Source of the DNA: Bacteroidota bacterium
Lineage (GTDB): Bacteria > Bacteroidota > Bacteroidia > Chitinophagales > Saprospiraceae
Length of the DNA stretch: 37,798 nt
NCBI GenBank assembly: GCA_003648285.1
Contig: QMOR01000002.1
Location: 1 to 37,798 of the forward strand
Reading direction: 5' to 3'
Within the stretch, counting starts at the first letter, position 1. Each line of letters begins with the position of its first letter. Position numbers and translations under genes: made by a program. The notes below the pieces were generated by a model. The model did not search any database, was not told the DNA's origin, and saw only the letters and a list, made by a program, of their open reading frames with translations. This document shows, piece after piece, positions 16,020 through 35,155 of the stretch.

Positions 16020-17060
16020 TCAAGCAAGATGATGCGGCAAAAAGGCCATTGGGATGGCAGGAAAATTTTTCTTCGATGCCTCCTTATAAAGCACAGCCAT
16101 GTCGCTCAGAGTTTTGTCCAGTGGGGTATAAGTGAATCCGGGGACACTCAGTGAGCGCGTATTGTCAAAGTGTAAAATGCAGGCCGTAGTCCTTGCCGTG
16201 GGCTTCGAAATCAGGGACTCCCTACCCGTAATGAACTCATATGGCCATAAGAGACGCCAGGCAATTTCAGTCATAGCAGGTTTGAGCCGGATAAACGGAG
16301 CAGGATTTCCGACGAGCTTTGCTATGCGGCTAAAAACATCAATGTAGGTACTATTGGTTCCATTGGCAATCATGCGTTCAGAACCTTCGTCACGTTCAAA
16401 TCGCAGGATACACAGGTGGGCAACGTCTCGCACATCTACAATACCATTGGTACCTACTGGATAGAATTTCAGCCCCCGTGCTCCTCTATAAAAGAATGAC
16501 GTAGACCCTTCCTTCCAGAATCCACTCCCGAAAATAATCGTTGGATTGATGATAGCCACATGCAGACCTTCAGCCTCTCCGCGCCTTACCTCCAGTTCGG
16601 CGAGGTGTTTGGTAAGTCCGTAATGTGAGGTCCAGGGCGTCGGTTCCCATTCTGTTTTCTCGCTTATAAATTGCTCACCACCTGTTCTGGTAAACACGGA
16701 GATAGAACTGATGTGTATGAGCTTTTCAACACCATGATGCAACGCCGCATTGACGACATTGGTCGTTCCGTCAACATTGACTTCGTACTGTCTCTTCTCC
16801 GCGCGCTTTTCGTAGGAGATCAGAGCGGCGGCATGTACGACCCAATCAGCTCCTTGCATTCCAGCATCAAGAGAGTCCGTATTTAAAATATCTCCTTCAA
16901 CCCATGTGACACGATCATCCACATTCGCAACGAGATCCATCCGACTCCCCTTCTGCCGCAATGCAGTGATATTGGTATAGCCTCTCTCGAGAAAGAGTCT
17001 CAGGATGTGAGAGCCAAGCAATCCGGTTGCTCCCGTGATGAAGATGCGTTTTGAATGCAT
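16020..17060 (-). CDS. NAD-dependent epimerase/dehydratase, dihydroflavonol-4-reductase-like extended SDR
   Basis: MHSKRIFITGATGLLGSHILRLFLERG Rossmann motif; ISSISVF; SHYGLTKHLAE (YxxxK). Start moved from 17132 to the internal Met just before the Rossmann motif. Confidence 0.88.
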   Translation of the reverse strand: MHSKRIFITGATGLLGSHILRLFLERGYTNITALRQKGSRMDLVANVDDRVTWVEGDILNTDSLDAGMQGADWVVHAAALISYEKRAEKRQYEVNVDGTTNVVNAALHHGVEKLIHISSISVFTRTGGEQFISEKTEWEPTPWTSHYGLTKHLAELEVRRGEAEGLHVAIINPTIIFGSGFWKEGSTSFFYRGARGLKFYPVGTNGIVDVRDVAHLCILRFERDEGSERMIANGTNSTYIDVFSRIAKLVGNPAPFIRLKPAMTEIAWRLLWPYEFITGRESLISKPTARTTACILHFDNTRSLSVPGFTYTPLDKTLSDMAVLYKEASKKNFPAIPMAFLPHHLA

Positions 17061-17416
17061 GAGGGCGCAAGATAGTAATGTCAATGTTTGGCAGAGTGTG
17101 AATGCTTTGACGAAAGTGGAGATTATCGTCAATAATCAATTTCTGTCGCAGGCAATGTATAGCTAGAGAGTATAAGTATCGAGATGTTAATCTTCCAGGG
17201 TCAGGATTGATGAAGGCGTGGACCTCGGCGCACAAAGGCCAGCCTGCATCAGCTTGAAATTGGGCAAGGGCGTAGTTCAGTATCCAGACGCGCATTTACA
17301 CAGTTGTTTGACTGGTAATTCAACAAAAAGGGTAGAAAATTTTGAAAATTCGTAAAAATCTCCTTTCTTTATACTCAAGAACGATTTTAGTCAAATAGTT
17401 CATTAAATAATATATC

Positions 17417-17998
17417 ATGGCAGTTGATGATACAAGAGAAAAAATATTGAGTGTTGCTGACAAGCTGTTCGGTCGATTTGGGTTTCATAAGACATCCATG
17501 GATGAGATTGCGAAAATTGCAAGGAAGGCTAAAGGGTCACTATACTACCATTTTACTAGTAAGGAGGATTTGTTTAGAGAAGTTGTGTCCTATGAAATAC
17601 TCAATCTAGAAAAGCATCTGTCCGTGATAGTTTTGGATTCAAAATTAAATGCATCGGACAAATTGAAAAAGTACCTGGTAAAAAGGATGGCAATCTTGTC
17701 TGATGCTGCTAACTATCATGAAACTCTAAGAGCGGATTTTTTCGAGCATTTCAATTTTATTGATGGCCTGAGGAGTGAATTTGACTTTTGGGAAAAGGAA
17801 ATGTTACGAAGAATTATAATGGAGGGCGTTGAGGGAAAAGAATTTGCTCCTGTAGAAAACATGGACGTATTGTTGGAGTTGCTGATCATGGTATTAAAGG
17901 GACTGGAGATTCCATTTTTTTTACAAGACAAATACGTGAATTATGCACCACATTTTGAGGGCTTGATGCGCATTCTTACAAGAGGGCTGTCGGTCTGA
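17417..17998 (+). CDS. TetR/AcrR family transcriptional regulator
   Basis: N-term HTH TREKILSVADKLFGRFGFHKTSMDEIAKIARKAKGSLYYHFTSKEDLFREV. Confidence 0.93.
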   Translation: MAVDDTREKILSVADKLFGRFGFHKTSMDEIAKIARKAKGSLYYHFTSKEDLFREVVSYEILNLEKHLSVIVLDSKLNASDKLKKYLVKRMAILSDAANYHETLRADFFEHFNFIDGLRSEFDFWEKEMLRRIIMEGVEGKEFAPVENMDVLLELLIMVLKGLEIPFFLQDKYVNYAPHFEGLMRILTRGLSV

Positions 17999-18079
17999 TA
18001 TTTTTTTGACCTATACTGACTATAAAACATAAATCGTCCATAACGTTTATACAAGATAAAATTGAGTAAAACAAGATAA

Positions 18080-20341
18080 TTGATGAGGAAAGTGGCAGAA
18101 ATAGTATTGCGGTTTAGAGTGCTGATCGTTGTGATGACATTGCTATTCACGGCGGCTACCGGGTATTTTATTAAGGACGTAAAAATCAATCCTGATATTT
18201 TAAGTTACTTGCCTGATGATGATGAGGAGGCTATGTTGTTTGACATGGTTGGAGAGAAGTATGGCGGTAATTATGTCGCTCTAATTGGTCTTGAATCTGA
18301 TGATGTATTTGACAATGAAGTTCTAACTCACGTAAAAGTACTCACAGATACCCTTAGAACATTGGACGGCGTATCGTATGTAACAAGTCTCACCGATGTC
18401 ATTGATATAAAAAGTAGTGAATGGGGTGTTGAAATTGGCAAACTGGTTGATGAATATAATTTGCCGGAAAGTGATGAAGACGTTAGGAAGCTTAAAGAAT
18501 ATACGTTGTCTAAGGATTTTTACAAAGGGGTTATTGTTTCCGAGGATGCAACGCTCACGTTGATTTACGTCAAGATTAGTGAAGGGGTTGATAAGATTGA
18601 AGTGGCAAACAACATTGTAGCGGCAGTTGAAAGCTATAATTATCCTGAAAAAATTCATTTTGCTGGACTTCCTGTGATGCTTGACCAGTTTAGCAAAATC
18701 GTGGTGGATGATCTTTTGCTGGTTGGTCCCTTGGCCCTGTTGATAATCCTTTTAGTACTCTTCTTCGCGTTTAGAAGCGCGGCAGGAGTGATTCTGCCAA
18801 TTGTAACTGTAATTATCAGTGTGACATGGACAGTAGGGATTATGGGCTACCTGGGAGTGGAATTTTCGTTAATTACCAACATCATTCCGATTATTTTACT
18901 TGCGATTGGAAGCGCTTACACTATTCATGTCTTGAATAGAATAAATGAGACAGAGGACGAGGATAAAGTCAAGAAAATAGAAAAAGCTTTGGCCTATATA
19001 ATAATACCGGTATTGTTGGCATCGCTAACCACGATGGTAGGATTTCTTTCATTTGTGTTTGGATCGTACTTAACGATGATAAGTACATTTGGACTGTTTA
19101 CGGCGTTGGGCACTTTTTTCGCGCTTGTATTGTCATTAACATTTGCGCCTGCCTTGTCTGCGATATTTCTGGGTAGGAAGTCAAAAGGTAACGCTACATT
19201 AAGGAGTAACAACAAGTCTTTTCTAACTAAAGTATTGACTAAGCTATTTTATACAGTTCAGTCACATCCAAAGTACATTGTGTCTATTTGGTTGCTTGTA
19301 ATAATGATTTCAATTTTTGGCATTTCCAATATTGTGCGAAAAAGCAATATGGTTGAGTACTTTAAGAAGGATCATACAACAAGAGTTTCTGAGAACCTAT
19401 TTTCTGAAAAACTGGGCGGGACACTTCCGGTTTACTTAATTGTAAAAGGGAATACGCAAAGCCCTGAAGTGCTGAGAATGATGAGAAAGGCTGCCGATTT
19501 TATGGAAGGCACAGGTCATGTTGTGAACACTCAGTCTGTGGCCGATATGATTGAAGAGATGAATGATATTATGGGAACTGATGGCAAGGTTATCCCAGAT
19601 AGAGAAGATAAGATTATAAATCTTTGGTTTTTAATTGAAGGCCAGGAAGTGCTGGATCAGATGGTAAGCCCTGATTTGGATGAGGGAATGGTGGTTGGAA
19701 CATTCACGTCAAATGATAGTCGTGTTATGGCAGAATTTATTGCGGAAGTAAATGAATTCATTGCTGAGAATGACAGTGATAACTACTCTTTGGCTTTAAC
19801 CGGGTTTCCCTCTTTGTATAAGAAACTGGATGAAAGCCTTGTCAAGAGTCAATTAACGAGCCTTTCTATAGCCATTCTATTGGTACTGCTTATTGTATCA
19901 GTCACGTTCAGGTCGCTATTGGAAGGGGCCTACGCAATTATTCCTATTGTATCTACATTAGTCATATTATTTGGATTTATGGGGCTTACTGGTATTCCTT
20001 TAGATGTTGCTACTGTACTGGTAGGAAGTATCTGTATTGGCATTGGCGTAGATTATGCAATCCACATGATTTCCCATATTAACAATGAGTACAAAAATAC
20101 TGGTGAATTCACATTGGCCTTGCAGCATGCAGTTAGTATCAGTGGGAGAGCAATCGTAATAAACGTGATGTCAGTCGCATGCGGCTTTTTGGTTTTGCTA
20201 TTTTCGAACTTGGTGCCGTTACAAAATTTTGGCGTTTTGGTTGCCTTAACAATGATTGTTTCGGGTTTAGGGGCGCTTACGCTAATGCCTGCAATTATGG
20301 TTTTGAGTAAGAGGATATTGAAATTGGCCATTCGCCGTTAG
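18080..20341 (+). CDS. MMPL/RND-superfamily transporter with two SSD-like halves
   Basis: About 753 aa with two repeats of a periplasmic loop plus TM bundle; ILSYLPDDDEEAMLFD; GVDYAIHMISHINNEYKNTGEF; IGSAYTIHVLNRI in the first half. Confidence 0.9.
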   Translation: MMRKVAEIVLRFRVLIVVMTLLFTAATGYFIKDVKINPDILSYLPDDDEEAMLFDMVGEKYGGNYVALIGLESDDVFDNEVLTHVKVLTDTLRTLDGVSYVTSLTDVIDIKSSEWGVEIGKLVDEYNLPESDEDVRKLKEYTLSKDFYKGVIVSEDATLTLIYVKISEGVDKIEVANNIVAAVESYNYPEKIHFAGLPVMLDQFSKIVVDDLLLVGPLALLIILLVLFFAFRSAAGVILPIVTVIISVTWTVGIMGYLGVEFSLITNIIPIILLAIGSAYTIHVLNRINETEDEDKVKKIEKALAYIIIPVLLASLTTMVGFLSFVFGSYLTMISTFGLFTALGTFFALVLSLTFAPALSAIFLGRKSKGNATLRSNNKSFLTKVLTKLFYTVQSHPKYIVSIWLLVIMISIFGISNIVRKSNMVEYFKKDHTTRVSENLFSEKLGGTLPVYLIVKGNTQSPEVLRMMRKAADFMEGTGHVVNTQSVADMIEEMNDIMGTDGKVIPDREDKIINLWFLIEGQEVLDQMVSPDLDEGMVVGTFTSNDSRVMAEFIAEVNEFIAENDSDNYSLALTGFPSLYKKLDESLVKSQLTSLSIAILLVLLIVSVTFRSLLEGAYAIIPIVSTLVILFGFMGLTGIPLDVATVLVGSICIGIGVDYAIHMISHINNEYKNTGEFTLALQHAVSISGRAIVINVMSVACGFLVLLFSNLVPLQNFGVLVALTMIVSGLGALTLMPAIMVLSKRILKLAIRR

Positions 20342-20389
20342 GTCATAATTATTAATACTATTAATTAATATGATTATAATTTAGGAAAT

Positions 20390-21121
20390 ATGAGAAATAC
20401 TAGAAGCACATTACTCACAATTGCAATCCTTTTGACTGCTATGAGTATGTATGCACAAGATGCAAACGCAATTTTAAGTAAAGTGGATGACGTTATGTTT
20501 TCTCCTAAGGATATGTCAGGTAAAACAAAAATTGTTTTGATAGACAAGAATGGGAAGGAGAAGACGCGAGAGGCAATCATGGTGCAAAAAGGAACGGACA
20601 AACGTATTTTTCGATTCACGGCACCTGCTTCGCAAGATGGGATAGCCGTTTTGTCTCTCCCGGATGATGTAATGTATTTGTATCTGCCGGCCTACGGAAA
20701 AGAAAGAAGGATATCAACGTCTGTGAAGAGCCAAAATTTCGCTGGTACTGACTTTTCGTATGATGATATGGAAGCAAAGCCCAATTCAGAAAAGTACACG
20801 CCAAAGCTAATTGAGGCGAGGGGAGATGTGTTTGTTCTCGAGCTTACACCAAAGTCTCCAAAATCCCCTTATTCAAAAATCGTAATGGAAGTGCATGCAA
20901 CACATTACTACCCTGTTTCAGGAGATTATTACGATAAGAGTGGTAAAGTAATAAAAGAGGCTACTTCAAATTATGTGAAAATTGGAGATTATTGGAATGC
21001 TCAGGAGATGGTCATGACTGATTTGAAAAAGAACCATACTACCAGGATGATAATGTCCGACGTAAAGTATGATCAAAATTTGTCTGATGACGAGTTTACT
21101 ATTAGGAAGTTGAAACAATAG
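20390..21121 (+). CDS. LolA-like / outer membrane lipoprotein-sorting protein family (periplasmic)
   Basis: Signal peptide ending MYAQD; PKDMSGKTKIVLIDKNGKEKTREAIMVQKGTDKRIFRFTAPASQDGIAVLSLPDDVMYLYLPAYGKERRI...GTDFSYDDM; ends KYDQNLSDDEFTIRKLKQ. Confidence 0.85.
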   Translation: MRNTRSTLLTIAILLTAMSMYAQDANAILSKVDDVMFSPKDMSGKTKIVLIDKNGKEKTREAIMVQKGTDKRIFRFTAPASQDGIAVLSLPDDVMYLYLPAYGKERRISTSVKSQNFAGTDFSYDDMEAKPNSEKYTPKLIEARGDVFVLELTPKSPKSPYSKIVMEVHATHYYPVSGDYYDKSGKVIKEATSNYVKIGDYWNAQEMVMTDLKKNHTTRMIMSDVKYDQNLSDDEFTIRKLKQ

Positions 21122-21130
21122 ATATATCTT

Positions 21131-22693
21131 ATGCGAAAGAAATCGGTTGCACTTGTTCTCTCAGGTGGAGGGTCAAAGGGTCTTGCTCATATTGGAGTAA
21201 TTAATGAGCTAGAACGGCAGGGATTTGAAATCACATCTATCTCTGGATCCTCTATTGGGGCTGTGATCGGTGGGGTATATGCCATGGGCAAATTGCCAGA
21301 GTACACTGAATGGGTTAAAACACTGAAGCCACATTCAGTATGGAGCTTAATGGACTTTACATTTTCAAGCCGCGGACTCCTGAAAGGTGAAAAAGTTTTT
21401 GAAAAAATGAAAACATTTATACCTGATATCGACATAGAAAGTATGAATATCCCTTTTGCAGCTGTCGCAACTGATATTTTGAATGAACAGGAAGTGGTTT
21501 TTACATCGGGTAGTTACTATGAGGCGATCAGGGCGTCGGTGGCCATCCCTGCCATATTTACCCCTGTTAAGTATAGGGATACGTTTCTAGTCGATGGTGC
21601 AATAATCAACCCGATCCCAATTGAACATGTGCAATGTGGTGCAAATGATTTGTTGGTAGTAGTGAGCCTTTACGGAGAAAGGAATGGAGAGGCAGTAGAG
21701 GGAGAGAAGATCGTGCAAGAAGAATCAGTGTCTGCTAAAATTACTGAGTTCGTAAATATGACCAGTAGCTTGATGAGCTCCGGCAAAAAAACAAGTTTGG
21801 GGTATTACTCACTTATAAATAGGACAACATCGGTGATGATTCATCAATTAGCAAGGCATATCATTGAAAGGCGTAGCCCAGACATGTTGATCAGTATGCC
21901 AGCTGATTCATCCAACATTTTCGATTTTTATAAATCTGAAGAGCTAATTGAACTGGGACATAGATATGCAAGTACGGAAATTTCAAAGTATTGTTCTCCT
22001 CTGACGTTAAAGACTTCAGCTGTAATATGCGCTTATAATGAAGAAAGTACTATTCAGAGTGTTTTGATTGCTATTTCTAATTACTCCTTCGACGAAGTTA
22101 TTATTGTCAATGATGGCTCTACGGACAATACAGATGCCTTGATTTTAGAATTAGTGGATTCACATCGCTTAAAGTATATCAAGTTGCCTGAAAATAAAGG
22201 CAAGGGATTTGCCATGGCGACAGGGATAGAAAGTGCAAGTAATGACATTATTTTATTCCTTGATGCGGACATGTTGAATTTCAAAAATGAGCATTTTGCT
22301 CGGATGCTTCAGCCTCTGCAAAGTGAAGAAATGGACATGGTACTGGGTCAGCCCAGTGAAACTCTGATTAACTCCAATTTTAATCCCTTTAAGTCATTCA
22401 CTGGCCAGCGCGCATTGTTGAAAAAGGATGTGCTTCCAATTCTTGATAAAATGAAGGTATCCAGATTCGGAGTAGAGACTCTGATAAACTTATACTTTCA
22501 ATCGAAAGGGAAAAGAATAAAACATATCATGCTTGACGGCCTTGAACATCCTACCAAGTTTGAAAAAACAACTTCTGCTCAGGCAGTTAAGGAATTTGCA
22601 ATGGAAGGACAGGAAATTGCTCTGACTACTGCAAAAAATTTGGGACTGATTGTGGATATAGTAAACAATTATATTTCAAAGCACACGCAATGA
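21131..22693 (+). CDS. Patatin-like phospholipase fused to GT2-family glycosyltransferase
   Basis: N-terminal patatin motifs LSGGGSKGLAHIG, GSSIG (GxSxG) and LVDGAIINP (DGA). C-terminal (about residue 295 on) GT2 motifs SAVICAYNEESTIQSVL, VIIVNDGSTDNT, ILFLDADM. One uninterrupted ORF. Confidence 0.92.
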   Translation: MRKKSVALVLSGGGSKGLAHIGVINELERQGFEITSISGSSIGAVIGGVYAMGKLPEYTEWVKTLKPHSVWSLMDFTFSSRGLLKGEKVFEKMKTFIPDIDIESMNIPFAAVATDILNEQEVVFTSGSYYEAIRASVAIPAIFTPVKYRDTFLVDGAIINPIPIEHVQCGANDLLVVVSLYGERNGEAVEGEKIVQEESVSAKITEFVNMTSSLMSSGKKTSLGYYSLINRTTSVMIHQLARHIIERRSPDMLISMPADSSNIFDFYKSEELIELGHRYASTEISKYCSPLTLKTSAVICAYNEESTIQSVLIAISNYSFDEVIIVNDGSTDNTDALILELVDSHRLKYIKLPENKGKGFAMATGIESASNDIILFLDADMLNFKNEHFARMLQPLQSEEMDMVLGQPSETLINSNFNPFKSFTGQRALLKKDVLPILDKMKVSRFGVETLINLYFQSKGKRIKHIMLDGLEHPTKFEKTTSAQAVKEFAMEGQEIALTTAKNLGLIVDIVNNYISKHTQ

Positions 22694-22715
22694 TTATCTA
22701 AGTAAATCAGAAGAA

Positions 22716-24098
22716 ATGATCCGAATATATTTCGCTGTTGCCTCCTTGTCAGTTTTCTTCCTGTTCTCCAGTGTAGTACATGCTCAGGATGTCGTTAACA
22801 AGCTTAAACTGACCGGAGAATTACTAACAGACCAGCGCTTCTTGTTAGACGCTCCACATGACTGGGCCTGGAACGAGAATCGTTTAACTCTAAGGTTGAG
22901 TAAGAACATATCAGGTAATTCAAAATTTCATAGTGAAATTTGGGTGCGGAATATTGGTCTTCCTACTGTGAGTTCATCCGCTGACTTATACAATAAGGGG
23001 ATAATTGACCCTATTAATCTAGAAATACGCGAGGCATACGTTCAGTTGTTTGGATTTTTATCAAAGAATTTGGATGTTAAAATCGGACGTCAAAGGATAG
23101 CATGGGGAACGGCGGATAAGCTAAATCCAACGGATAATCTGAATCCTTATGATTTGGAGGACATATTAGATTTTGGGAGACATAGAGGATCTGATGCCTT
23201 AAGTTTGGATTATTACTTTAATTCGGATTTTTCATTACAAACGGTCTATATCCCATTTTTTCAACCGGCAAATTTACCTGTTGGCATTTTTGCAAATGCC
23301 CTTACACCAAGTATGGAATTGCCGCCTGGAATGACTTTGGTGGATTTTACGGATTCAGTTGAGTTGCCGAGGTATAATCTGGCCGAAAGCTCTACAGCTG
23401 GAGTAAAATTAAAGGGTTTTGCTGTCGGGTTTGATTTTTCAGTAAGTTATGTATGGGGAAGAGATGGTTTGCCAATGAGTGTGTATAATAGTTTTGCACC
23501 TGTCGATACATTGGGTGGGGTGAGCATTAATTCGCAGTTGTCATTCTATCGCACGCACATATTCGGATTTGATATGGCTGGCAGTATTGGTGGTGTAGGT
23601 GTATGGGCAGAGGCAGGATTGTTTTTGCCTGAAAATGAAGTGATTATGACCACGGATCTAACAAAGTTCTTTCCTGGCTCGCCTGAACCGGTAATCATGG
23701 ACTCAGTTGTCTTGGAAAAAGAAGTATATGCTAAATTCGTAGTAGGTGCAGATTATAATTTTTCTAATGGAATATACTTGAATATCCAATATTTACATGG
23801 CTTCGTAAATGAGAGGGGTAGGGATGGTTTGAATGATTATTTTTTCGTTCAGCTTGAGAAAAAGTTCTTCGATGAAAAATTGAAAATTGTACCATTAGCC
23901 GGCGGCTTTATAGTTTCTGATTGGAGGAATGTAAGTGAGAATTATACTGTAATTTATATTCCGAGTATGTCTTATATGGCTACTGATAATGCAGAAATAG
24001 TGCTTTCAACAGCCCTTTTTACTGGGAAAGGAGAAAATGTATTTGCCAGTTTGACGGATTATGATATGTTTATGTTTAAATTGAAATATAGTTTTTAA
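22716..24098 (+). CDS. Outer-membrane beta-barrel / DUF1302-like porin
   Basis: Signal peptide ending VVHAQD; alternating beta-strand pattern; NLDVKIGRQRIAWGTADKLNPTDNLNPYDLEDILDFGR; aromatic C-term FMFKLKYSF. Confidence 0.75.
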   Translation: MIRIYFAVASLSVFFLFSSVVHAQDVVNKLKLTGELLTDQRFLLDAPHDWAWNENRLTLRLSKNISGNSKFHSEIWVRNIGLPTVSSSADLYNKGIIDPINLEIREAYVQLFGFLSKNLDVKIGRQRIAWGTADKLNPTDNLNPYDLEDILDFGRHRGSDALSLDYYFNSDFSLQTVYIPFFQPANLPVGIFANALTPSMELPPGMTLVDFTDSVELPRYNLAESSTAGVKLKGFAVGFDFSVSYVWGRDGLPMSVYNSFAPVDTLGGVSINSQLSFYRTHIFGFDMAGSIGGVGVWAEAGLFLPENEVIMTTDLTKFFPGSPEPVIMDSVVLEKEVYAKFVVGADYNFSNGIYLNIQYLHGFVNERGRDGLNDYFFVQLEKKFFDEKLKIVPLAGGFIVSDWRNVSENYTVIYIPSMSYMATDNAEIVLSTALFTGKGENVFASLTDYDMFMFKLKYSF

Positions 24099-24160
24099 TG
24101 TGGCCCCTCTTAATGTGGCCCTCTCAATATGATCCCGCTCAATGTGGTCCCTCTCAATAG
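24095..24160. repeat. Degenerate ~15-bp tandem repeat (4 units plus a partial)
   Basis: TTAATGTGGCCCCTC / TTAATGTGGCCCTC / TCAATATGATCCCGC / TCAATGTGGTCCCTC / TCAATAG, starting on the stop codon of the barrel gene. Confidence 0.85.
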
Positions 24161-24198: not shown

Positions 24199-25287
24199 CT
24201 ATGGGAGATAAATACCGCCGTTAATCGTATCGATTTCCGCACCCGTAACCGAAGCGAGCGCATTCGGTGTTTCGATAACGCGCAGGAGACCACAAAGTGC
24301 CATAAGTACTCCTTCCTTAAAGTCAATGATATCACTATCCGGGACAAGAACAGAGACATGCATCTGCTCGAGTTTATCTCGAATTTCATCGCCAAGAAAA
24401 GTATTGTGCGCGCCACCCCCTGTAAGCAATAGAGTAGGCGTAATTGCTTCCTTTTTGAGGATGTTTTTTATTTGAACTGCGATGCTCTCACAATTGTAGT
24501 TGACAACCGTCCTCATTTGATCTTCGACAGACAATTTTGATTTTTGTAGAATTGGGACAAATGTATTTGTGACAAACGAATTGTCGAGTGAGTACGGCTC
24601 AGTTAATGGAAGAGGAATGATGCCGCTTAATTCTTTCATAAGACTCAAAGAAATTTTCCCCTCTCGGGCCAACGCCCCTTTGTTGTCGTAAGTCAACCCT
24701 TTTTGTGCCGCGAGATAATTCAATAGCTGATTACATGGGCAAATGTCCCAGGCATATATTTCTTCTCCATTGTGTGCGCTGAGGTTGGCGATTCCCCCAA
24801 GATTGAGGTAAAAACCATACCCCGCAAAAAGATATTTTTCCACAATAGGAGCAATTGGAGCTCCTTGCCCGCCATGCGCCATATCATTGCTCCGAAAATC
24901 TGAAATCACTATCACATCTGCACCTGCCGCAATATGCGAGGGGCTCCCGATCTGAACGGTAAATCCGTTTTCGGGTGAGTGAAAGACCGTGTGACCATGC
25001 GAGGCGATATAATTCGGAGTAATTCCGGACGATTCAATAAACCGGGCGCACATTTCACCAAATAGTACTCCCAGTTCAGCGTCCAGCCTGCTGAGCTCAA
25101 GGGAACTCAATCGTGGAGCGGATTCGAGACGCTTTTTCCAGGGTCCGTCAAATGCCGCCTCATGTGTCGCCAGCAATTTCCATTCAATCACATCGTCCTC
25201 ACCCGAATTAAACTCGACCATGGCGAGGTCAACTCCATCCAGTGAGCTACCGGACATCAATCCCAGGATATTGTAATTCATCATCAT
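24199..25287 (-). CDS. anmK: Anhydro-N-acetylmuramic acid kinase
   Basis: LGLMSGSSLDGVDLAMVEF; ASHGHTVFHSPENGFTVQIGSPSHIAAGADVIVISDFRSNDMAHGGQGAPIAPI; LLTGGGAHNTFL. Confidence 0.95.
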   Translation of the reverse strand: MMMNYNILGLMSGSSLDGVDLAMVEFNSGEDDVIEWKLLATHEAAFDGPWKKRLESAPRLSSLELSRLDAELGVLFGEMCARFIESSGITPNYIASHGHTVFHSPENGFTVQIGSPSHIAAGADVIVISDFRSNDMAHGGQGAPIAPIVEKYLFAGYGFYLNLGGIANLSAHNGEEIYAWDICPCNQLLNYLAAQKGLTYDNKGALAREGKISLSLMKELSGIIPLPLTEPYSLDNSFVTNTFVPILQKSKLSVEDQMRTVVNYNCESIAVQIKNILKKEAITPTLLLTGGGAHNTFLGDEIRDKLEQMHVSVLVPDSDIIDFKEGVLMALCGLLRVIETPNALASVTGAEIDTINGGIYLP

Positions 25288-28599: not shown

Positions 28600-29205
28600 A
28601 TGTCAAGAGAGGAAGTACTAGAGGGAGCGAAGGAACTTTTCTTGCGATACGGCATTAAGAGCATCACCATGGATGACGTGGCAAGAGAAATGGGCATATC
28701 CAAAAAGACACTCTATCAGCATGTCAAGAACAAAACTGACCTGATAGAGCGGATCATTCATCAACACATTCACGATGAGAAAAAATGTCTGAGTGAATTG
28801 CCTGGCCAGGCACACGATGCGATCGAGCAGGTACTGATGATTGCACAGTATGTGGTCCAGATTTTAAGAGGGATGCGGCCAACTACGATGTTTGACCTGA
28901 AAAAATACTATCGCGAATGCTGGAACATGATGGAGGAGTTTCAGCATGAGTATATGTACGAAATGATTCGCGGCAATATTGAACAGGGAGTCAAAGAAGG
29001 CTTGTACAAGGATGACCTTGATGCTGACATTATCGCCAAACTCTATATTGGAAAAACCATGCTCCTGACTGATGAAAAATTATTTCCAGTAGGGGAATAT
29101 GATCGTGATAAGCTTTTTACTGAATTTATTCAATATCACCTGCGCGGAATTGTATCCGAGAAGGGAACGAAGCAGCTCGAAACCTACCAACCCGATTACC
29201 TATGA
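28600..29205 (+). CDS. TetR/AcrR family transcriptional regulator of efflux operon
   Basis: SREEVLEGAKELFLRYGIKSITMDDVAREMGISKKTLYQHVKNKTDLIERI; overlaps the next gene by 4 bp (ATGA). Confidence 0.93.
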   Translation: MSREEVLEGAKELFLRYGIKSITMDDVAREMGISKKTLYQHVKNKTDLIERIIHQHIHDEKKCLSELPGQAHDAIEQVLMIAQYVVQILRGMRPTTMFDLKKYYRECWNMMEEFQHEYMYEMIRGNIEQGVKEGLYKDDLDADIIAKLYIGKTMLLTDEKLFPVGEYDRDKLFTEFIQYHLRGIVSEKGTKQLETYQPDYL

Positions 29206-30524
29206 TCAAATATTTCATTACGCTGCTACTCGTCTTGCCGACGGTATTTGCTCAGGCGCAATGGCAGCTCTCGCTTGAGCAGACGATCGCTTATGCGATG
29301 GAAAATGCGGCCAATATCAAGCTGGAAAAGAAGGACATCGAAGATGCTGAGAGTCAGATCCTGGAGTTTAAGTCCATCGGTATTCCGAAACTTGACGCCA
29401 ACGTAGACTACGCTTATTTTCTAGCATTACCAACAATCCAGATACCGGATTTTAACGATCCATCAGGACCCACTATTCCGGCACAATTCGGTACCGATAA
29501 CAGACTTGATGCCGGCTTTTACCTCGATATGATGCTGTTTGATTTTTCATGGATACAGGGATTGCGTGCGCAGAAAATGTTCAGAGAGCTTGTTGTCAAG
29601 GAACTGGACGTCACCGAGTATCAGACACGGTCGACAATCACACGCGCATACATGGCCGTGTTGATCATGGAGCGGACGAATGAACTCATTGATAATAATA
29701 TCAGCAACATAGAAAAACTTCACAGGGAGACAGAAGCATTGTATGAAACGGGGTTTGCAGAGAAATTGGATGTTGACCGGCTTGTATTTTCACTGAGTAA
29801 TTTGAATGTGGAAAAAGAAAGGGCGCTACGGGCGATAGATATGAGCGAAAATCTTTTGAAGTTTCAAATGGGATTTCCCGTGATAGAAGAAATTGAGCTC
29901 ACAGATGAATTTGATATCATTGCTGACCAGCTTTCGGTAGAATCAATTGATCTGACGGGAGGTGTCGATTATCAGGCAAGGCCGGAATACAGAGCGCTGA
30001 CATTGCTCGAGGAATTAAACGAAACCAATGTCAAGGTAGTCAAGGCAGGGTATATGCCGAGTTTCAGGGGGCATGCATCATATGCGCAAACCTTGCAACG
30101 CGACGAATTGTTTGATGCAAATAGTTCGTCCTGGTTTCCAAGTAGTGTGCTGGGTGTATCAATGAATCTTCCAATTTTCGACGGTCTGGAACGGAAGGCT
30201 AAAATACAACGGGCAACAATCAATTCGGAAAAAGCATCAATACGCCGGTTGGATTTTGAAAATGCCATGGAAATGGAAGTGCGCAATGCGCGCATTGCAT
30301 ATATCAATGCGAGGGATGCATCTGTGTCGCGTTCTGATGCGATGGACCTCGCGCAATCAATATACGATGTCACACAAATTAAATACCGCGAAGGGGTAGG
30401 TTCGAGTGTCGAGCTGACCCAGGCGGAATCTGAACTATACACTGCACAAACAAATTATATCAATGCGCTCTATGAACTCATCGTCACCAAGACAGATTTG
30501 GACATCGCGCTTGGCAAAATGTAA
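29202..30524 (+). CDS. TolC-family outer membrane efflux protein
   Basis: Signal peptide; LSLEQTIAYAMENAANIKLEKKDIEDAESQILE; YREGVGSSVELTQAESELYTAQTNYINALYELIVTKTDLDIALGKM. Confidence 0.93.
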   Translation: MIKYFITLLLVLPTVFAQAQWQLSLEQTIAYAMENAANIKLEKKDIEDAESQILEFKSIGIPKLDANVDYAYFLALPTIQIPDFNDPSGPTIPAQFGTDNRLDAGFYLDMMLFDFSWIQGLRAQKMFRELVVKELDVTEYQTRSTITRAYMAVLIMERTNELIDNNISNIEKLHRETEALYETGFAEKLDVDRLVFSLSNLNVEKERALRAIDMSENLLKFQMGFPVIEEIELTDEFDIIADQLSVESIDLTGGVDYQARPEYRALTLLEELNETNVKVVKAGYMPSFRGHASYAQTLQRDELFDANSSSWFPSSVLGVSMNLPIFDGLERKAKIQRATINSEKASIRRLDFENAMEMEVRNARIAYINARDASVSRSDAMDLAQSIYDVTQIKYREGVGSSVELTQAESELYTAQTNYINALYELIVTKTDLDIALGKM

Positions 30525-30528
30525 ACAC

Positions 30529-31710
30529 ATGACCACAAGAATAAGCCTTGTAATAATTGCCTTGGTTCTGCTCGGTTGTAGTGCCCGTCCGATTCAGGAC
30601 GAGGGCGCTTTACCTACTGATCTGTCCGGGTTGAAAGCCATGAGAAAGGACAAAAGGAATGAGATCAAGATGCTTCAAAACGACCTGAAAGAGATTGAAG
30701 CAAAGATCACGGATTTAGAACCGAATCGCCTGGACAAGAAGCGCCTTGTAACAACAATTGAGGTAGTGCGTAGTGACTTTAGGCGCTATGCTACGATCCA
30801 GGGGGCAATTGCATCAAAGAATCTCGTGACAGTTTCGAGTGAAGTTCCGGGTCGCCTTACTTCGGTTACGGTCGATGAAGGGCATCCAGTTAAGCGTGGT
30901 CAACTCATCGCTTCGGTGGATTTAGAGTCATTGAAGAAACAGCGTCAGGAACTCGAGACGCAATTGGAATTGGCTCGTGATATTTTCGAGAGGCAGGAGC
31001 GGCTTTGGAAGCAGCAAATAGGCTCAGAAGTGCAATACCTCCAGGCAAAAAACGGTGTGGACAGATTAGAAAGGAGTATCGAAACCATCGATTATTCGTT
31101 AACCAAATCAAATATTTACGCACCAATAACGGGTGTCGTGGATATCGTAAATCTCAAGACCGGTGAAATGGCACAACCAGGCATGCCAATCATCATGATT
31201 CTTGACACGAGGAATATCATGGTAGTGGCTGATGTTCCCGAAAACTACCTCGGTAAAATAAAGAAGGGTGATATTGTCAAAATTCATTTTCCCGCACTCG
31301 ATCAGGATATCGAAGCGCCGGTCACGTTAATTGGCAGAAAGATCCATCCTGCAAACAGAACATTTAAAATTGAGATTGACCTGCCGAATAAAAGTGGATT
31401 GCTTAAACCCAATTTGCTTTCTGAGGTGCAGATCAATGACTATGTCGAACCTGATGTGATTGTGATTTCACAGGAATTGATTCAACAGGAAGTAGGAGGT
31501 CGCGATTTTGTGATATTGGCTGAGTCTGATGATGAAGGTAGCCATGCAAAGAAAATTTATATAGAAACTGGTCAAAGTTACGAAGGAGCTGTTGTGGTGG
31601 CGACCGGACTTAAAGCAGGGGATGTATTGGTAGTAGAGGGTGCGCGAGGGATTGCTGACCTTGAAAGTATTCAAATCCTTAATCCGGAAACTGCGACCGA
31701 TGACAAATAA
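30529..31710 (+). CDS. RND efflux periplasmic adaptor (HlyD/MFP family) lipoprotein
   Basis: SPII signal MTTRISLVIIALVLLGC; SEVPGRLTSVTVDEGHPVKRGQLIASVD; coiled-coil; NIYAPITGVVDIVNLKTGEMAQPGMPIIMI. Confidence 0.93.
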   Translation: MTTRISLVIIALVLLGCSARPIQDEGALPTDLSGLKAMRKDKRNEIKMLQNDLKEIEAKITDLEPNRLDKKRLVTTIEVVRSDFRRYATIQGAIASKNLVTVSSEVPGRLTSVTVDEGHPVKRGQLIASVDLESLKKQRQELETQLELARDIFERQERLWKQQIGSEVQYLQAKNGVDRLERSIETIDYSLTKSNIYAPITGVVDIVNLKTGEMAQPGMPIIMILDTRNIMVVADVPENYLGKIKKGDIVKIHFPALDQDIEAPVTLIGRKIHPANRTFKIEIDLPNKSGLLKPNLLSEVQINDYVEPDVIVISQELIQQEVGGRDFVILAESDDEGSHAKKIYIETGQSYEGAVVVATGLKAGDVLVVEGARGIADLESIQILNPETATDDK

Positions 31711-34700
31711 AATAAAAGAGGGGATACGCAATTTTGGCCTTACTTCTCTTGCCGTCGATAATGCGACGAGTGTTTTCCTGATGACGTTTATGATCATGAT
31801 CTTTGGAATCATGTCATATGACCAGATGCCAAAGGAGCAGTACCCGGAAGCAGCCTTTCCCACTGTATTTATCAACACACCGTACTTTGGAAATTCGGCA
31901 AAGGATATCGAGAGTCTTGTCACGAAACCCATTGAAAAAGAATTGCAGAGTATTGAAGGGGTAGAGGATATCAGTTCCACATCAATTCAGGATTACTCAG
32001 TCATCACTGCCGAATTCGGAACTGACATGGACATGGATGACGTCATCAGGAAGGTGAAAGATGCCGTTGATAATGCAAAAAAAGAGCTTCCTAACGACCT
32101 GGATGACGACCCGATGGTCGTGGAGGTAAATGCTTCCGAATTTCCAATCATGACGATCAATATGTCAGGGGATTTTGGCATGGACGAACTCAGAGAATAT
32201 GCTGAGTACATGGAAGATGAGATAGAGGATATGGATGAGATATCCAAAGTCGTGATCAAGGGTGTACTGGAGCGCGAGGTGAAGATAGATATTGACATGA
32301 TCAAAATGATGTCCCTGAAAGTGTCATTTGAGGACATCGAGAATGCGATTTCTGCCGAGAATATAACGATGTCAGCAGGTGAGATTGTCAGGAATGATTT
32401 CCGACGCGCCATACGTGTTGTAGGTGAGTTTGAGACGATGGAGGATATCGAAAATGTCATTGTCAAAAGTGAAAACCAGCGTCCGATTTTCCTGCGGGAT
32501 ATTGGTAAAGTCACGTATGGTTTCAAGGACAGAACCAGTATTGCGCGTTCTGACGGCTTTCCGGTTGCATCGCTTGACGTGATTAAACGATCGGGAGAGA
32601 ACCTCCTGAATGCTTCCGATAAAATAAAACTGGTCATCGAAGAGGCAGAGAAAAATGTACTGCCTTCTGATATGAAAATCACCATCTTCAATGATCAAAG
32701 TATCAATACACGAAATCAGGTCAATAACCTGGAGAACAGCATTATTTCAGGCGTCATACTTGTCGTGATTGTATTGCTTTTCTTCCTTGGCTTGCGTAAT
32801 GCCGTGTTTGTGGGAATGGCAATACCGCTGTCAATGCTGACCGGTATTATTGTATTGCATGCAACTGGCACTACGATGAACCTTGTCGTATTATTCGGAT
32901 TAATATTGGCGCTGGGCATGCTCGTTGACAATGGGATCGTAGTCGTAGAGAATGTCTACCGGTATATGCAGAATGGGAAGTCCGGGGATGTTTCTGCAAA
33001 ACAGGGCACTGGTGAAGTGGCCTGGCCAATTATTGCATCGACAGCAACAACGCTTGCTGCATTTCTTCCTCTCGCATTCTGGCCCGGCATAATGGGGGAG
33101 TTCATGCTATACTTGCCTCTGACGTTAATTATCGTATTGTCTTCCTCACTGTTTGTCGCACTGGTGATTAATCCTGTGTTTACAGCAAAGCTGATGAAGG
33201 TCGATAAGTTTAAAGAGGATAAGGCAGTTCGGAAACGCAAGCGTCGCAATGTGTTGTTAGGCGTGCTCATGATGCTCGTTGTAGCATTAGTGGGGCATCT
33301 GACGAAAATCTATGCGATGCGGAATTTATTGGTATTGGTGGCCATCATTACACTCATAAATACTTTCGTTCTGCGTGGGGCTTCTATCTACTTCCAGAAG
33401 AATATCATGGTGGCTCTTGAACGGGCATACGACCGATTCGTACGAATGGCTTTGCATAAATTATTTCCTGTGGCGACGTTCGCAGGTACAATTGGATTAT
33501 TGTTTTTTGCGATATGGTTGCTGTCGGTAAAAATGCCCAAAGTGGAGTTTTTCCCGAACATCGATGCTATTTATATCAATGCATTTGTCGAGTTGCCTAT
33601 TGGCAAAGACATAGAAGCGACAAATGCTATCATGCTTAAAATGGAGGAGCGCGTCACGGAAGCGATGGCCCCCTACGAAAGTATTATTGAGTCTATTTTG
33701 TCACAGATTGGGGCGAATACTGCAGATCCAAATACGCCTCCGGAGCCTGGTGTGACTCCACACAAGGCGAGGCTTACTGTTGCATTTGTTCCAACCGAAG
33801 ACCGGGATGGTGTGTCAACCCGTGATGCCCTGGATGATTTGCGTGAAGCAGTATTGGGTGTATATCCCGGTGTGCAGGTCGTGGTCGATCAGAATGCGTC
33901 CGGACCACCCGCAGGAAAGCCAGTAAATCTTGAATTGTCAGGCGAGAGCATCGATGTGCTGGCGATTGAATCAGAAAAGCTGATCTCGTATTTGAACAGC
34001 TATGGGATCCCGGGTATTGAACAACTTCAGGCAGACGTGAAAAACGGGAAGCCGGAATTAATTATCAATATCGACAGGGATGCTGCAAGAAGATACCAGC
34101 TGTCCACATATAGTATCGCTAATGCCATTCGAACTTCTGTCTTCGGAAAAGAAGTCTCAAAGTTTAAAGTGGGAGATGATGAGTATCCAATTCAACTTAG
34201 GCTGGACCCGCGATACCGGCATAATGTAACAGATTTGCTCAATCAAAAAGTGACATTTCGCAATCAGTCAACAGGGAAAATAATTCAGGTACCGATATCA
34301 GCGGTGGCAACGGTTACGAATACTTCGACGTACAGTGCAGTCAAACGTAAAAATTCGGATCGGGTCATCACGATATTTTCAAATGTACTCGAGGGGTACA
34401 ATGCAAATGAAATTGTAGCCCAATTGCGGGATGCCATGACTGAATATGATTTGCCGGTTGGATACAATTATGAGTTTACGGGGGAGCAAGAGCAGCAGGC
34501 TGAGGACATGGCGTTTCTGGCAAATGCATTTCTGATTGCCTTATTTTTAATTTTTATCATCCTCGTTTCTCAATTTAATTCACTGACGTCGCCATTCATT
34601 ATTATGATTTCTGTGCTGTTCAGCACGATAGGGGTGTTTCTTGGATATGCCTTGACTGGTATGACGATATCCGTCATATTTACGGGTGTTGGTCTGGTGT

Positions 34701-35155
34701 CGCTGGCAGGAGTTGTCGTGAATAATGCAATTGTACTCGTGGACTACATTAGTTTGCTCATTAAGAGAAAACGGTTGGAGAAGAATGTGAAAAGTATGTT
34801 TGACCTGACAAAAGATGAGGTAAAGAACGCTATTATAGATGCCGGATCTACAAGATTACGACCGGTCCTTTTAACAGCTATCACAACTATTCTTGGATTG
34901 ATACCGCTGGCTATAGGATTCAATTTTAATTTCTTCACCTTTATTAGTGATCTTGATCCACAGTATTTTGTGGGTGGCGATAATAGTGCAATGTGGGGTC
35001 CAATGGCCTGGACTGTTATTTATGGCCTTGTATTTGCTACATTTTTGACGCTGATAGTTGTGCCGGTCATGTACTGGTTGGCATATCGGGGAAAGCTCGT
35101 TTTACGTCAGTTACTTTCGGGAAAAAAGGAGAATAGTATAACTCCTGCAACATAA
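31700..35155 (+). CDS. RND efflux inner-membrane transporter (AcrB/HAE1-like)
   Basis: Start Met at 31700 (MTNKIKEG), 11-bp overlap with the MFP gene; about 1151 aa; ILALGMLVDNGIVVVENVYRYMQNG; GVGLVSLAGVVVNNAIVLVDYI; RLRPVLLTAITTILGLIPLAIG. Confidence 0.95.
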   Translation: MTNKIKEGIRNFGLTSLAVDNATSVFLMTFMIMIFGIMSYDQMPKEQYPEAAFPTVFINTPYFGNSAKDIESLVTKPIEKELQSIEGVEDISSTSIQDYSVITAEFGTDMDMDDVIRKVKDAVDNAKKELPNDLDDDPMVVEVNASEFPIMTINMSGDFGMDELREYAEYMEDEIEDMDEISKVVIKGVLEREVKIDIDMIKMMSLKVSFEDIENAISAENITMSAGEIVRNDFRRAIRVVGEFETMEDIENVIVKSENQRPIFLRDIGKVTYGFKDRTSIARSDGFPVASLDVIKRSGENLLNASDKIKLVIEEAEKNVLPSDMKITIFNDQSINTRNQVNNLENSIISGVILVVIVLLFFLGLRNAVFVGMAIPLSMLTGIIVLHATGTTMNLVVLFGLILALGMLVDNGIVVVENVYRYMQNGKSGDVSAKQGTGEVAWPIIASTATTLAAFLPLAFWPGIMGEFMLYLPLTLIIVLSSSLFVALVINPVFTAKLMKVDKFKEDKAVRKRKRRNVLLGVLMMLVVALVGHLTKIYAMRNLLVLVAIITLINTFVLRGASIYFQKNIMVALERAYDRFVRMALHKLFPVATFAGTIGLLFFAIWLLSVKMPKVEFFPNIDAIYINAFVELPIGKDIEATNAIMLKMEERVTEAMAPYESIIESILSQIGANTADPNTPPEPGVTPHKARLTVAFVPTEDRDGVSTRDALDDLREAVLGVYPGVQVVVDQNASGPPAGKPVNLELSGESIDVLAIESEKLISYLNSYGIPGIEQLQADVKNGKPELIINIDRDAARRYQLSTYSIANAIRTSVFGKEVSKFKVGDDEYPIQLRLDPRYRHNVTDLLNQKVTFRNQSTGKIIQVPISAVATVTNTSTYSAVKRKNSDRVITIFSNVLEGYNANEIVAQLRDAMTEYDLPVGYNYEFTGEQEQQAEDMAFLANAFLIALFLIFIILVSQFNSLTSPFIIMISVLFSTIGVFLGYALTGMTISVIFTGVGLVSLAGVVVNNAIVLVDYISLLIKRKRLEKNVKSMFDLTKDEVKNAIIDAGSTRLRPVLLTAITTILGLIPLAIGFNFNFFTFISDLDPQYFVGGDNSAMWGPMAWTVIYGLVFATFLTLIVVPVMYWLAYRGKLVLRQLLSGKKENSITPAT

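Follow-up and report, generated by a model that had tools for sequence, protein, structure and literature searches.

A TetR-headed cassette joining an MMPL/LolA/DUF1302 export line to a patatin-glycosyltransferase fusion in Bacteroidota: a candidate system for lipid modification and export

Introduction

How unusual lipids of the Bacteroidota are delivered to the outer membrane is, to our knowledge, largely unsettled. This work concerns a five-gene cassette at positions 17417–24098 of contig QMOR01000002.1, from a member of the Saprospiraceae; the whole 37.8 kb stretch that was analysed is termed the window. The cassette encodes a TetR-family repressor, an MMPL-type pump of the resistance-nodulation-division (RND) kind, a LolA-like periplasmic carrier, a fusion of a patatin domain with a family 2 glycosyltransferase (GT2) domain, and a DUF1302 outer-membrane barrel.

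Among the closest described systems is AmeABCD of Castellaniella defragrans, a characterised exporter composed of an HAE3 pump, a LolA-superfamily protein and a DUF1302 protein; its deletion leads to lower monoterpene tolerance and more Nile Red accumulation (PMC6394551). An export route formed by an RND protein and a LolA-like protein has also been proposed for aryl polyene lipids, whose gene cluster includes a lysophospholipid acyltransferase and a thioesterase (PMC8253772). The hopanoid transporter HpnN is described as functioning with no periplasmic or outer-membrane protein dedicated to it (PMC6394551).

In the window, one repressor ties the MMPL-LolA-DUF1302 line to lipid-modifying enzymes, and in relatives these enzymes are accompanied by a tripartite RND pump. 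The locus is read here as a horizontally acquired, TetR-repressed cassette that would modify and export an amphiphilic lipid, a reading that we regard as evenly balanced between right and wrong; the nature of the substrate is a proposal based on the gene families.

Gene content of the cassette

The first gene (17417–17998, on the plus strand as are all five) encodes a TetR-family repressor of 193 amino acids (PF00440 TetR_N, 60.5 bits), with 64% identity to the TetR proteins that head loci L038, L039 and L136. The genome searches are of samples, and orthologue labels outside the window come from phmmer or BLAST together with Pfam. The second gene (18083–20341) encodes an MMPL-type RND pump, putatively of the HAE3 class, of about 752–753 amino acids with 12 transmembrane segments; its start is an ATG at 18083 or, according to the open reading frame tool, a TTG at 18080. 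Its hydropathy profile has 12 peaks, and the second half of the protein contains the motif GVDYAIH. The pump scores 176 bits with the MMPL family PF03176, well over the cut-off, and 295.7 bits with the HAE3 model TIGR00921, under the cut-off of 351.9.

The third gene (20390–21121) encodes a LolA-like periplasmic carrier of 243 amino acids with an apparent signal peptide (PF17131, 171 bits; PDB 3bk5, E=2e-22), which also matches DUF1329 at 26.6 bits against a cut-off of 23.1. The fourth encodes the fusion, with its patatin-like lipid acyl hydrolase domain at 21131–21991 (PF01734, 94.8 bits) and its GT2 domain at 21995–22693 (PF00535 Glycos_transf_2, 95.5 bits). The fifth gene (22716–24098) encodes a DUF1302 outer-membrane β-barrel of 460 amino acids with an apparent signal peptide (PF06980, 29.6 bits against a cut-off of 23.2). 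The predicted model of the barrel consists mostly of β strands and is porin/AlgE-like, at a modest confidence (predicted local distance difference test, pLDDT, of 70).

All five open reading frames are intact and their domains lie above the Pfam cut-offs, and the gene content given by the initial annotation thus stands. The intergenic gaps are likewise as it had given them, at 81, 48, 9 and 22 bp, the first being 84 bp if the ATG start is used. Its proposal of a single transcription unit is consistent with the operator layout and conserved gene order described below, and the families present are those of a complete export line from inner membrane through periplasm to outer membrane. Among the open reading frames and Pfam matches of 17417–24098 there is no ketosynthase, acyl carrier protein (ACP) or acyltransferase, as had been noted, and no dehydratase.

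The patatin-GT2 fusion enzyme

The two enzyme domains form one open reading frame of 520 amino acids. Alignment shows the patatin motifs to be intact: the oxyanion loop GGGSKG, the GxSxG nucleophile elbow as GSSIG, and the DG[AG] dyad motif as DGA. The nearest solved structure is that of PlpD (5fqu, E=2e-31), and the domain reaches 169 of the 272 bits needed for the RssA model. The GT2 domain has a GT-A fold with a DAD motif and two C-terminal helices; residues D90-A91-D92 and N39-D40-G41-S42 are invariant in an alignment of seven homologues. Its AlphaFold model (pLDDT 80.5) has GpgS, ArnC, GtrB and DPM synthase as its nearest folds, with Z scores of 18–20; GpgS, ArnC and DPM synthase are tied in Z, and the fold comparison gives no choice of donor or acceptor. 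A transmembrane segment or signal peptide was not found in the fusion.

The possibility that the fusion is a misread was considered and rejected, as the junction has no stop codon and no in-frame ATG, GTG or TTG; it is a genuine single reading frame in the assembly, a draft of 290 contigs that is 72.56% complete and the one assembly from which the fusion is known. No other patatin-GT2 fused reading frame was found in the order sample, in a pattern-based scan of genome contigs or in the phylum sample. Aligning the fusion together with separate GT2 proteins gave a result that looked misaligned and was discarded: the GT2 rows scored 24–28% against the whole, and one invariant column fell within the patatin part.

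Operator-like sites

The tetR-upstream sequences of seven other loci align on a 27 bp imperfect palindrome, roughly TCGACYANNAAACGNNNNTAGTCGAA. A matrix was trained on these sites with the window excluded; two pairs of the training loci are near-duplicates, which leaves an effective training set of about five. The matrix finds its top score in the window, 19.1 bits, upstream of tetR (17370–17396, plus strand, TATACTCAAGAACGATTTTAGTCAAAT; P of about 0.0002), and its second, 15.6 bits, between tetR and the pump gene (18016–18042, plus strand, CTGACTATAAAACATAAATCGTCCATA; P of about 0.0006). P values were obtained by dinucleotide shuffles within each gap. The next distinct score in the window is 8.4.

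The second site is also present in the gap between tetR and the next gene in eight loci (L136, L038, L039, L103, L104, L139, L087 and L138) when the clade of the searched locus is left out of the matrix. Two loci outside the training set, L141 and L142, have the first site upstream of tetR; they represent the G329 and G509 clusters at their tetR end and adjoin L111 and L112. The 27 bp motif also precedes tetR in clusters with an RND, membrane fusion protein (MFP) and TolC pump, patatin, acyltransferase and GT2. With an orthologous regulator and operator-like sites on both flanks of tetR, a predicted TetR regulon is common to the window, Lutibacter and G362 clusters. Other MMPL operons (L089, L090, L093 and L094) have no strong operator site; in L091, the gap after its TetR gene holds a weaker match (14.8). 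Counts of simple terminators and sigma-70 promoters are near those of shuffled sequences and are uninformative. The operator sequence provides a concrete probe for finding further members.

Related gene clusters

The MMPL-LolA-DUF1302 line is found behind TetR in G813 and G362. G813, from the same class, has TetR-MMPL-LolA-DUF1302 contiguous on a 5.7 kb contig, with 64, 48, 65 and 68% identity to the window proteins. G362, from another class of the phylum, has TetR, MMPL, LolA, phasin-like, UbiB kinase, GT2, LysE, PlsC, 4HBT thioesterase, serine palmitoyltransferase (SPT)-like, patatin and DUF1302 genes in one cluster; its DUF1302 protein is 40% identical to that of the window. The conserved co-occurrence that the initial annotation had set as its own test is thus observed. 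The clustering of the five families is not due to chance: four of the genes adjoin one another in G813, and a single G362 cluster holds every family. The SPT-like gene of the G362 cluster (L087, 1005–2198) is a second copy, the other being on contig C15 with 50% identity. The MMPL proteins of L087 (7701–10601) and L088 (7759–10659) are 966 amino acids in length; compared with the 753-amino-acid pump of the window, that of L087 carries an insertion of about 206 residues ahead of its second membrane block, and that of L088 has a similar break in its match.

The export line is also found under other control. In G995 (L210, 10169–14572) MMPL-LolA-DUF1302 adjoins an AraC-type regulator, with DUF2147 behind and without TetR or the operator, which argues that the export line itself is a portable unit; G968 has LolA-DUF1302-DUF2147 in the same order.

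In other clusters the same regulator family precedes an RND/MFP/TolC pump. Lutibacter L038 has TetR, MFP, RND, TolC, ACP, patatin, a GlsA-type acyltransferase and GT2, all as separate genes. Loci L039, L103, L104, L139 and L140 have TetR-MFP-RND-TolC with patatin, and L039 has ACP as well. G509 and G329 have TetR-MFP-RND-TolC-PlsC-patatin, followed by PAP2 with either β-ketoacyl-ACP synthase III (KAS III) or DUF3108, and GT2; patatin, GT2, PlsC, PAP2 and KAS III are found at L112, and separate patatin and GT2 genes at L111. The patatin gene is split into reading frames of 157 and 113 amino acids in three genomes of different genera (L104, 1691–2556; L139, 13863–14728; L140, 4665–5530), unlike that of the TetR-RND cluster of G479, which is intact. 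A further locus, L138 (657–3545), opens with TetR and two operator sites; genes for a radical-SAM/B12-binding protein, a GT2 and LysE follow, and the part of the contig that was examined has no exporter.

Orthologues are otherwise scarce. Across 247 genomes of other members of the order, no MMPL orthologue was found at E≤1e-60, and TetR and GT2 orthologues are each found in 3 of 295 other phylum genomes. This rarity rejects a general Bacteroidota operon; the cassette is rare and probably horizontally moved.

Mosaic origin and exchange of exporters

The TetR, patatin and GT2 sequences of the window are nearest those of Lutibacter (64, 61 and 47% identity), G813 TetR being equally near, and the pump, carrier and barrel are nearest those of G813, a cluster that has no lipid enzymes. 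Sequence comparisons therefore show the cassette as a mosaic in origin. In the patatin tree the window protein groups with those of Lutibacter, G479 and some stand-alone patatins, apart from G362, G329 and G509; two patatin lineages in such clusters suggest repeated recruitment. G362 and G329 share one downstream flank, as judged by gene order and size only, so that the two exporter types would occupy matching sites in one family. On this comparison of clusters, the regulator and operator appear as the constant element, patatin and GT2 recur in most clusters, and the exporter appears exchangeable.

Perhaps, although we offer it only tentatively, there is a mobile TetR-controlled cassette family of the Bacteroidota in which a patatin/acyltransferase/GT2 core is served by either RND/MFP/TolC or MMPL/LolA/DUF1302, the fusion making a surface-exposed glyco-lysolipid from existing membrane lipid in one polypeptide. 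If the exchanged exporters do carry one lipid, both pump types share a physiological substrate.

Insertion between anmK and an epimerase gene

The five-gene block was probably gained by horizontal transfer. The G+C content of the cassette genes is 38–40%, against 44–48% for the flanking genes. On the left, outside the cassette, is an epimerase/dehydratase gene (16020–17132, minus strand), and on the right, likewise outside it, is anmK (24199–25287, minus strand). In 18 of 29 relatives the epimerase/dehydratase gene lies directly 3′ of anmK on the same strand, often with a 4 bp overlap, and in at least three relatives EF-G is next after the pair. In the window, 7 kb on the opposite strand part the two genes. 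Given the lower G+C content and the intact pair in these 18 relatives, the cassette is interpreted as an insertion.

A 15 bp tandem repeat of 4.2 copies (24097–24158) lies at the 3′ edge of the cassette, directly after its last stop codon, and has one further weak match only in the window; it is possibly an insertion footprint. Pfam gave no match for a minus-strand reading frame of 126 amino acids (16915–17295), which is probably spurious. At 28600–35155, some 4.5 kb away from the cassette, there is an ordinary tripartite efflux operon: a further TetR gene, then OEP (TolC-type), an HlyD-type MFP and a large AcrB-type RND reading frame.

Proposed function

In the proposed mechanism, TetR would sit on its two operator copies, the positions of which are those found above, and be released by a hydrophobic or acyl ligand. 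The patatin domain, a cytoplasmic enzyme with a Ser-Asp dyad, would act at the cytoplasmic side of the inner membrane by removing or transferring an acyl chain; the GpgS/ArnC-like domain fused to it would glycosylate the head group of that lipid or of a neighbouring one. The families and intact motifs are consistent with such chemistry, and the substrate and the coupling of the two steps are proposed from these. The HAE3/MMPL pump, driven by the proton motive force, may then move the product into the periplasm, where the LolA-like protein may carry it, and the DUF1302 barrel may pass it into or through the outer membrane; the families and gene order are as observed, and the route is modelled on the AmeABCD and aryl polyene precedents.

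Lipid modification and export is favoured because both exporter types suit amphiphiles. RND/MFP/TolC would carry them directly across both membranes, and MMPL/LolA/DUF1302 would do so as in AmeABCD (PMC6394551) and, for an RND protein with a LolA-like one, in the way put forward for aryl polyene lipids (PMC8253772). The initial annotation further argued, from the lack of ACP and acyltransferase genes, that the module may act on existing lipids. These genes are indeed absent from the block, but the argument is weakened because cognate clusters carry ACP, PlsC/GlsA, KAS III or an SPT-like enzyme, so partners could act in trans.

Several observations weigh against lipid modification and export. 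TetR with an RND pump is the usual make-up of a drug or solvent efflux locus. G813 has no patatin or GT2 within its cluster and no orthologue of them elsewhere in its 85%-complete genome, and in G995 no lipid enzymes adjoin the exporter; the exporter can therefore do without them. In G581, regulator, operator and GT2 are present, and the examined piece carries no exporter. An acyltransferase, which usually accompanies patatin in such clusters, is absent from the window cassette.

The main rival, which we rank not far behind although as less likely than not, is an inducible efflux and membrane defence system. TetR would respond to a hydrophobic toxic compound, be it a solvent, terpene, fatty acid or antibiotic, which the pump, carrier and barrel would expel; no dedicated lipid product would be exported, and the fusion would repair or remodel membrane lipids or glycosylate the compound. 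The exporter resembles AmeABCD, with its monoterpene and Nile Red phenotypes (PMC6394551), and in other clusters a standard HAE1 RND/MFP/TolC pump takes its place behind this TetR and operator. Deacylation and reacylation of membrane lipids would be in keeping with a patatin paired with a PlsC/GlsA acyltransferase. Yet the ACP, KAS III, SPT-like and GT2 genes of cognate clusters point to specific lipid synthesis rather than repair, and GT2 is conserved at 39–47% across classes.

It is unlikely that the cassette is a reduced biosynthetic cluster, that is, the attachment and export half of a pathway that is decaying or that needs ACP, acyltransferase or SPT-like enzymes encoded elsewhere in the genome. 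L038 and G362 do have ACP or an SPT-like enzyme together with GlsA/PlsC beside the same genes, and the window genome has a partial oxoamine-synthase homologue (36% over 213 amino acids) at a contig end, but the five intact reading frames with their catalytic motifs, the neat fusion and the short gaps suggest a working unit. That an unrelated patatin-GT2 gene was inserted by accident between the carrier and barrel genes of an Ame-like exporter is very improbable: nothing lies between LolA and DUF1302 in the contiguous exporter genes of G813, G995 and G968, but G362 independently has GT2 and patatin at this position behind the same TetR and operator, and Lutibacter has both enzymes behind them as well.

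Comparison with known systems

The window resembles AmeABCD in that an MMPL pump, putatively of the HAE3 type, a LolA-superfamily periplasmic protein and a DUF1302 outer-membrane protein are encoded together. AmeABCD differs in that it includes AmeC, a further periplasmic protein, and in that its LolA-superfamily member is a DUF1329 protein of 451 amino acids, and its cassette is not reported to have TetR, patatin or GT2, all three of which are present in the window. Since no further reading frame for an AmeC-like second periplasmic protein lies within the operon, the window is Ame-like and is not an Ame system proper. The operon had been called a candidate undescribed one; this does not hold for the exporter part, as AmeABCD has been characterised (PMC6394551). 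A search of the open-access literature turned up no publication describing a TetR-RND-patatin-ACP cluster or a patatin-GT2-MMPL cluster.

The attachment and export genes among those for aryl polyenes (ApeD, J, K, L, M and N) also recall the window in part: an RND-family exporter (ApeM) and a LolA-like protein (the chaperone ApeL) occur in both, and the glycosyltransferase/acyltransferase ApeJ may have its counterpart in the GT2 domain of the fusion. The aryl polyene cluster differs by its ketosynthases, ACPs, dehydratases and LolB-like ApeN (PMC8253772), none of which lies in the cassette. In the window, GT2 is fused to patatin instead of an acyltransferase, and a DUF1302 barrel is present. 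HpnN is an MMPL-type pump too, one that exports a membrane lipid from the inner membrane, but it is only distantly related in sequence, the HpnN models scoring far under cut-off for the window pump.

Lutibacter L038, for which no publication was found, shares with the window an orthologous TetR (64% identity), patatin (61%), GT2 (47%) and the operator. It differs in having a tripartite HAE1 pump in place of MMPL-LolA-DUF1302, in its ACP and acyltransferase genes, and in that patatin and GT2 are encoded separately.

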